Below, one piece after another: positions 49,739 to 50,409 of a stretch of DNA of 64,000 nt (position 1 is the stretch's first letter; each line of letters starts with the position of its first letter). The translations under genes were made by a program, and so were the position numbers. Source of the DNA: Fibrobacter sp. UWP2 (GTDB lineage: Bacteria; Fibrobacterota; Fibrobacteria; Fibrobacterales; Fibrobacteraceae); NCBI RefSeq assembly GCF_900141705.1, contig NZ_FQYM01000001.1:62001-126000 (forward strand), given 5' to 3'. Under the pieces are notes generated by a model, which saw nothing but the letters and a program-made list of their open reading frames with translations, was not told the origin of the DNA and did no database searches.

Positions 49739-50036
49739 CTGCGGGTGCCAGGACTCGAACCTGGAGCGGGTTTTAGACCGCACGAGCCTTAAAGCCAACT
49801 TGAACGTCACGTTGGGCTCGTGCTCTCGCCACCACGACTCGTTAATACGAGTCGCTTGCGGCTCACGGCGATGACCGCACGGGCCTAATTTCTTAAAAAT
49901 ACGCCGGTTATAGGCTCGTGCTCTCGCAACCGCCCCTGTTTAATAACAGGGGCTTTGTTGCTCACAAAGGCCCCAGTTCCTCGTCCTAAATTCGGTATTA
50001 CACAAAAAGCCCCTCTCTTATCGAGAGGGGCCTTTT
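49739..50036. repeat. 298-bp tandem repeat, unit 1
   Basis: Begins with the 29-bp segment CTGCGGGTGCCAGGACTCGA... that is identical to the 3' end of the tRNA-Arg gene (T arm and acceptor 3' strand on the minus strand). The rest forms long stem-loops and a terminator hairpin (50009-50032). It differs from unit 2 at two positions by eye. No open reading frame or recombinase gene is inside. The 49544-49700 stretch to its left shows nothing recognisable. Confidence 0.85.
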
Positions 50037-50065
50037 CTGCGGGTGCCAGGATTCGAACCTGGAGC

Positions 50066-50290
50066 GGGTTTTAGACCGCACGAGCCTTAAAGCCAACTTG
50101 AACGTCACGTTGGGCTCGTGCTCTCGCCACCACGACTCGTTAATACGAGTCGCTTGCGGCTCACGGCGATGACCGCACGGGCCTAATTTCTTAAAAATAC
50201 GCCGGTTATAGGCTCGTGCTCTCGCAACCGCCCCTGTTTAATAACAGGGGCTTTGTTGCTCACAAAGGCCCCAGTTCCTCGTCCTAAATT
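50066..50290 (-). other. Candidate structured RNA with tandem sub-units and tRNA-like 3' end
   Basis: On the minus strand two sub-units each show a GCNNC/GTNGC stem around a hairpin with a TATTAA loop, then GAGAGCACGAGCC pairing with GGCYCGTGC. Both stems covary between the sub-units (GCAAC/GTTGC versus GCCGC/GTGGC; loop hairpins CCCCTGTT versus GACTCG). The same is present in unit 1 at 49768-49992. Whether it is transcribed is unknown. It matches no RNA family I recognise. Confidence 0.45.
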
Positions 50291-50306
50291 CGGTATTATA
50301 CAAAAA

Positions 50307-50330
50307 GCCCCTCTCTTATCGAGAGGGGCC
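50307..50330 (-). terminator. Terminator of tRNA-Arg
   Basis: GCCCCTCTC/GAGAGGGGC stem, then TTTTTG on the minus strand, 5 nt after the tRNA 3' end. The same hairpin is repeated at 50009-50032 in unit 1. Confidence 0.85.
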
Positions 50331-50335
50331 TTTTC

Positions 50336-50409
50336 TGCGGGTGCCAGGACTCGAACCTGGAGCCTTTTGGTTCGTAGCCAAACGCTCTATCCAGTTGGGC
50401 TACATCCGC
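50336..50409 (-). tRNA. tRNA-Arg (ACG)
   Basis: Reads GCGGATG-TAGC on the minus strand. Anticodon arm is TTTGG-CTACGAA-CCAAA with anticodon ACG (Arg, CGN codons). The T arm is CCAGG-TTCGAGT-CCTGG and the acceptor 3' strand is CACCCGC with discriminator A. Position 5-68 is an A-C mismatch, which is unusual. CCA is not encoded. The last 29 bp are shared with both upstream repeat units. Confidence 0.9.

Follow-up and report, generated by a model that had tools for sequence, protein, structure and literature searches.

Tandem cassettes behind tRNA-Arg(ACG) in Fibrobacter: a hypervariable non-coding array whose units are probably exchanged through copies of the tRNA 3' end

Introduction

The DNA downstream of the tRNA-Arg(ACG) gene of the rumen bacterium Fibrobacter, read here in Fibrobacter sp. 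UWP2, raises the question of how several copies of a tRNA 3' end come to lie one behind the other, and of what fills the space between them. The window analyzed here is a stretch of 64,000 nucleotides (bases 62001-126000 of contig C1) from a 3.23-Mb draft genome of 72 contigs, labeled G000. An earlier note on this window described two tandem units sharing a tRNA 3' end and weighed an unusually small integrating element against local duplication. A comparable arrangement, the RtT repeats of the tyrT locus of E. coli, has to our knowledge so far been an isolated oddity, and RtT is suspected to be a functional RNA in that organism.

Organization of the array

ARAGORN finds a single tRNA in the whole window, the functional tRNA-Arg(ACG) gene on the minus strand at 50336-50409 (also Rfam RF00005), which is the source of the repeated tails. 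Downstream (3') of it, on the tRNA's own strand, tandem repeats finder (TRF) and a repeat search place two head-to-tail 298-bp copies at 49736-50033 and 50034-50331 with 99% identity, and the first ~32 nt of the copy are present a third time at 50332-50363, within the tRNA gene. Exactly two differences separate the units (C/T at 49754/50052 and C/T at 50001/50299), so that the head-to-tail layout, the two differing positions and the repeated tRNA-Arg(ACG) end reported in the earlier note are all confirmed. The units had been described as beginning with the tRNA 3' end; the repeat is real, but when read with transcription each unit ends with it.

On the tRNA strand a unit consists of a terminator, an antitail, two copies of an element E and a tail, and the full order is tRNA - terminator - antitail - E - E - tail - terminator - antitail - E - E - tail - different terminator, all on the minus strand. 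The tail is a direct copy of the T arm and acceptor strand, comprising the last 25-29 nt of tRNA-Arg(ACG), and its 25-nt form occurs three times: in the tRNA itself (50336-50360), as tail 2 with one mismatch (50038-50062) and as the identical tail 3 (49740-49764). The antitail repeats the T arm and variable loop in inverted orientation (AGGACGAGGAACTGGGGCCTTT, to be compared with AGGACTCGAACCTGGAGCCTTT, the tRNA's reverse complement); antitail 1 lies at 50264-50285, and antitail 2 at 49966-49987 is its counterpart one 298-bp unit further on. Both units hold two E elements (GTGA-P2-GAGA-P3-GGTC), at 50171-50263 and 50074-50164 in the proximal unit and at 49873-49965 and 49776-49866 in the distal one, with scores of 85.9 bits for the first and 89.9 bits for the second copy of each unit under the covariance model R1. 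Among the terminators, all delimited by repeat search, T1 lies immediately 3' of the tRNA (50302-50335, 14-bp arms at 50302-50315 and 50321-50334), T2 (50004-50037) is the same as T1, and the distal T3 (49700-49738, terminator class 2) is of another class, homologous to the sole terminator of the single-tail relatives G002 and G012.

Open reading frames of 40 aa or more are absent from the 298-bp unit, in agreement with the earlier statement that the unit lacks an integrase. The first unit together with the adjoining tRNA end folds well above shuffled sequences (z = -7.4). An Rfam identity for the Arg unit was considered and rejected, the matches to SpF41 and ctRNA_p42d being below the gathering scores and lying on the tRNA and terminator hairpins. 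Elsewhere in the window, positions 15929-16760 hold a separate tandem repeat of 456 bp in 1.8 copies that are 92% identical.

Variation among Fibrobacter genomes

We scanned 80 Fibrobacter genomes, which represent different species and include many MAGs, for the tail pattern, and the locus could be read in 70 of them. Throughout the 80 genomes the pattern is confined to the Arg(ACG) locus and never lies on the other strand there, and a control with the pattern read backwards gave zero matches in 80/80; on these two grounds a chance origin of the tails is excluded. Matching loci in named database records come from Fibrobacter only. The earlier note had considered that the unit might be absent elsewhere and constant in copy number; instead, one tail is found in 38 of the 70 genomes, two in 28 and three in 3, and a single genome, whose tRNA copy is broken off, is without a recognizable tail. 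Empty, single and double states thus all occur, as do the single copies and empty sites that the note had associated with a mobile element.

All 34 extra units contain a terminator, an antitail and a tail. The antitail scores at least 20 in 31/34 units against 37 of 1700 shuffles, and in 20/34 it carries a GAGAA motif, the window version being GAGGAA with partial pairing. Over 25 nt, 29 of the 34 extra tails match the tRNA without a difference and 4 have a single mismatch. E was recognized, by regular expression or by eye, in 33 units, including that of G092, in which a short P2 escaped the regular expression, and the unit of G007 has another hairpin instead; wherever E occurs in Arg arrays it is oriented in the tRNA sense.

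The terminators behave differently from the tails, the latter remaining near-identical across the genus while everything around them changes. Single-linkage clustering of ~46 nt, an approximate procedure under which some classes could be convergent, groups the terminators into 31 clusters, and of the 9 clusters with four or more members, 7 are represented both proximally, right behind the tRNA, and in last position. Proximal and distal terminators are often unrelated and change places between genomes. For instance, the terminator and flank that lie distal to the inserted unit in G005 recur in its close relative G095, which has one tail. The distal class of G000 is the sole terminator of G002 and of G012. 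In the three-tail array of G044 the units combine a common E with different terminators, and in G070, also with three tails, the first and last terminators are the same.

Given that the genome is a 72-contig draft whose two units are the same at all but 2 of 298 bases, the second unit of G000 could be suspected to be an assembly duplication of a biological single unit. We consider this highly improbable in view of the two differences and because G044 and G070 have three-tail arrays whose units clearly differ, and a one-unit array and its biology would stand anyway.

On a 69-genome tree built from the mrcA side of the locus, the distinction between single and multiple tails requires at least 20 state changes, 16 of them forced by strong branches, against a mean of 23 for shuffled labels, from which units seem to come and go almost freely. 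These changes, together with the movement of terminators between inner and outer positions, indicate that units are gained and lost as cassettes. The recent origin that the earlier note read from the high identity therefore holds for the two 298-bp units of G000, while the arrangement itself is genus-wide. Its alternative of local duplication, taken as a simple event, falls short, since terminators are often unrelated and swapped, every unit has an inverted T-arm copy and the body is a dispersed REP-like element.

The units might also be miniature site-specific integrating elements, or remnants of such, that use the tRNA 3' end as attachment site and are moved in trans by the tyrosine recombinase of an island or phage. 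The duplication of the tRNA 3' end in the tail, the precise empty and filled sites and the frequent gain and loss do resemble integration and excision. This reading is nevertheless improbable and the involvement of an integrase unsupported, as the unit contains neither ORF nor integrase, no second locus exists in 80 genomes and no match to the unit was found in 50,697 phage and 72,556 plasmid records; it also leaves the inverted T-arm copies and the swapped terminators unexplained. Direct repeats of 25-29 bp are, moreover, long enough for ordinary recombination.

The dispersed element E

When the 298-bp unit is used as query, its body proves to be dispersed through the genome as E, a ~92-nt element of two hairpins. 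Aligned copies have near-invariant GTGAGC ... GCGAGAG ... CGGTC segments around hairpins of freely varying sequence, and among 36 copies 18 of 21 pairs have changed on both sides, the covariation score being 0.570 compared with 0.169 for shuffled alignments and less than 0.08 with slid partners. Non-Watson-Crick pairs are biased to the GTGA (tRNA-sense) strand, with ~19 G-U against 6 A-C and 49 G-A, tandem on that strand, against 0 U-C, counts that are partly inflated by related copies. Correction of the palindrome by template switching may be the sole source of the covariation, although by itself it predicts no such strand bias of G-U and G-A over A-C and U-C.

R1 gives 63 matches in the G000 genome, corresponding to about 60 E copies, and in a 151-genome sample of the phylum its matches occur throughout Fibrobacter and in two other genera of Fibrobacteraceae, with none in any further genus of the sample. 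The GTGA strand is often antisense to the nearest gene at protein genes, and in at least 10 copies the GGTC end lies 0-9 nt from the stop codon of a gene running towards the element; these gene contexts are approximate and the counts lower bounds, owing to a crude ORF caller. E also forms tandem arrays elsewhere in the genome. At G000:C22:43551-44218 (L026-L029), four tandem units of ~191 bp each consist of E and the duplicated start of the neighboring coding sequence.

As in REP/BIME families, E copies are multi-copy extragenic palindromes with conserved tetranucleotides (GTGA, GAGA and GGTC); a conserved stem sequence was not found, the stems varying by compensatory change. Judged by these features E is a REP/BIME-like family whose two-hairpin architecture is unusual and strongly covarying, and, to the extent of the searches made here, this REP-like element of Fibrobacteraceae is uncatalogued. 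A RAYT/Y1 transposase as its driver was rejected because the gene (PF01797) is absent from G000; it is present in 4 of 15 other members of the genus that were searched.

RtT homologs in Fibrobacter

Re-reading of the E. coli tyrT-tyrV region shows the last 19 nt of tRNA-Tyr three times, exactly and with a spacing of 178 bp, and three units there are assigned to RtT by Rfam (RF00391). The RtT unit holds an inverted T arm, GGGGAAGGATGAGAAGCTTCGA, with a score of 29 that was reached by 0 of 500 shuffles and with the same TCGAA-to-GAGAA change as most Fibrobacter antitails. RF00391 also yields weak matches in 39 of the 80 Fibrobacter genomes, up to 37.6 bits and thus below the cut-off of 45, and among 14 control genomes 13 are negative, E. 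coli being the sole positive. Inspection of 30 matches places 28 at a distance of 27-43 nt behind tRNA-Ser(CGA) or tRNA-Pro(CGG); of the other two, one is found 220 nt downstream of tRNA-Ser(CGA), and the fragment that holds the second has no tRNA. The aligned Fibrobacter units are strongly conserved, and 23 of 37 pairs covary.

A covariance model of the Fibrobacter units behind tRNA-Ser(CGA) and tRNA-Pro(CGG), termed R2, matches all three E. coli RtT units with E-values of 1e-12 to 1e-14 and the tyrT-tyrV spacer with 3e-19, all of them rough values from a shortened calibration. The Ser/Pro units are hence recognized in both directions, by RF00391 (below its cut-off) and from R2 to E. coli, and since a model made from Fibrobacter units finds every E. 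coli RtT unit, RtT extends, on this homology, to the Fibrobacterota. Within G000 R2 detects five units, all at tRNA-Pro genes, and in the phylum-wide search it matches 76 of the 80 Fibrobacter genomes plus 11 further genomes from the family; R2/RtT-like matches were also seen in several other genera of the family. The spacer of E. coli K-12 (L263:1463-1595) scores 52.5 bits with R2, above the three annotated units, and probably represents a further RtT unit. At its cut-off, the present Rfam model does not pick up the Fibrobacter Ser(CGA)/Pro(CGG) homologs (L294-L323, L329-L340).

The Pro(CGG) locus of G000 (C1:161556-161981; L080:1575-2000) contains a terminator, an antitail with GAGAA and an RtT-like core set into the T loop between TTCGA and AATC, and its array includes two extra copies of the tRNA's last 16 nt at ~192-bp spacing. 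With regard to copies at other tRNA genes, which the earlier note had named as a mark of mobility, Arg copies occur at no other site, whereas arrays of analogous build, but with another core, are present at Pro(CGG) and Ser(CGA). Upstream of tRNA-Pro(TGG) (G000:C4 ~21760-22650; L117:660-1550) are two interrupted tRNA-Pro copies. The T loop of both holds an RtT-like insert, and one of them has, in addition, a degenerate E in the anticodon-arm region (R1, 26.5 bits); a third RtT-like unit lies after the intact gene, the RtT-like units here being R2 matches. At Arg(TCT) (L088, G000:C1:163555), Gly(GCC) (L087) and Pro(TGG) (L094), the terminator leads directly into an inverted copy of the 3' part of the same tRNA, which creates long palindromes with matches of 13-23 nt that are better than all other-tRNA controls.

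For the Arg units, a search for the RtT core of three hairpins with CCCGAAGGGC gave no RF00391 match at E<=5 in 49500-50600, and R2 has no match at E<=10 in the window, while the E. coli and Pro loci match strongly. Found by neither model, the Arg array is not a member of RtT.

Proposed mechanism and implications

We contend that the locus is probably a hypervariable tandem array of non-coding cassettes, each made of a terminator, an antitail, one or two E elements and a tail, which is anchored on the 3' end of tRNA-Arg(ACG) and exchanges its units by recombination between tails. Gain and loss would proceed through the ~25-29-bp tails, by homologous recombination or by replication slippage helped by the palindromes, either within one genome or with DNA from related strains. 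As each exchange between tails would restore an intact tRNA and change only the following terminator, it would be nearly harmless and would keep the tails identical to the tRNA. A variable copy number, tails that stay identical and terminators that exchange positions could thereby be accounted for without an integrase. The E elements are REP-like palindromes, and the antitail with its GAGAA/TTCGA motif puts the Arg units on the T-arm-derived scaffold of the E. coli RtT RNA.

Tail exchange by itself leaves the near-constant antitail and E unexplained, and either the palindromes drive duplication or the RNA matters. The recurrence of antitail, GAGAA and E in nearly all units, which neutral tail recombination does not require, suggests a structural or RNA constraint. 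In a rival reading the units encode functional RNAs, as suspected for RtT: proximal terminators would be read through, antitail and tail would pair as a tRNA-like helix, processing enzymes would set free a structured RNA with a role in buffering tRNA-Arg processing or in regulating growth, and selection for this RNA would keep antitail, E and tail. We judge this rather unlikely as the main explanation, even though the tail in 34/34 units and the antitail above threshold in 31/34, the strong covariation of E, the G-U/G-A bias in favor of the tRNA-sense strand, the constant orientation of E, the folding of the unit and the homologs of E. coli RtT at other tRNAs of the genus are all in line with it. 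The extra unit is missing in half of the genomes and its presence flips about as often as shuffled labels do, hairpins resembling intrinsic terminators precede the units, and the Arg units are without an RtT match; the strand bias is partly due to related copies, and the same strand is often antisense at protein genes.

Returning to cassettes exchanged through their tails, a wider proposal can be made, though only tentatively and as something short of an expectation. In distant phyla, tRNA genes may be hosts to one shared class of structured non-coding elements, all based on a T-arm palindrome (antitail-GAGAA...TTCGA-tail) but with cores that can be exchanged, RtT at Tyr/Ser/Pro and E at Arg; these elements would multiply downstream of the tRNA genes as self-repairing cassettes and be able to release tRNA-like RNAs. 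If true, this would be a tRNA-parasitic or tRNA-regulatory class of elements that has until now been known only as a curiosity of E. coli tyrT. The tail/antitail plan behind Fibrobacter Arg, Pro and Ser tRNAs and the two-way RtT homology turn what was an anecdote into a class open to comparison, dating and testing. Because units come and go often among related genomes, the Arg locus is a natural experiment in which comparing near relatives could reveal how the units move and whether they affect tRNA supply or termination.

Comparison with known systems

Palindromic repeats are known as GTAG- and CGTC-tagged REP/BIME and as REPIN (PMC3733652, PMC2817692, PMC12306157), and REPs nested in other palindromes have been described (PMC3733652). 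E resembles them in being a short extragenic palindrome that has a tetranucleotide (GTGA) at the foot of one hairpin, occurs dozens of times, forms tandem and mosaic arrays and in several cases lies 0-9 nt from a stop codon. It differs in stems that vary with compensation while the junction tetranucleotides stay fixed, in having two different hairpins per unit and in the absence of a Y1/RAYT gene from G000. In the REP literature, as far as searched, Fibrobacter is not mentioned. With integrative elements that target tRNA genes the Arg array shares the direct repeat of the tRNA 3' end, but its units hold no integrase or cargo, and no other insertion sites were found in the 80 genomes.

The closest likeness is to RtT at E. 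coli tyrT/tyrV (RF00391; rttR, tpr). In both, tandem units lie directly downstream of a tRNA gene and are closed by that tRNA's 3' end, and both hold an inverted T-arm copy that pairs with the tail and carries a GAGAA...TTCGA motif, though the pairing is partial in the window. Unlike E. coli RtT, the Arg units have E in place of the RtT core and its characteristic sequence, duplicate 25-29 nt of the tRNA instead of 19, have a hairpin resembling an intrinsic terminator behind each tail and differ in copy number from genome to genome. The Fibrobacter units at Ser(CGA), Pro(CGG) and Pro(TGG) occur in the same genomes as the Arg array and follow the same layout of tail, terminator and antitail, but in their case the T loop is interrupted between TTCGA and (A)ATC by the RtT core, and they are clear homologs of E. 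coli RtT. By its arrangement of motifs, the Arg array is thus built on the same tail/antitail scaffold as RtT and stands beside that family, outside its bounds.
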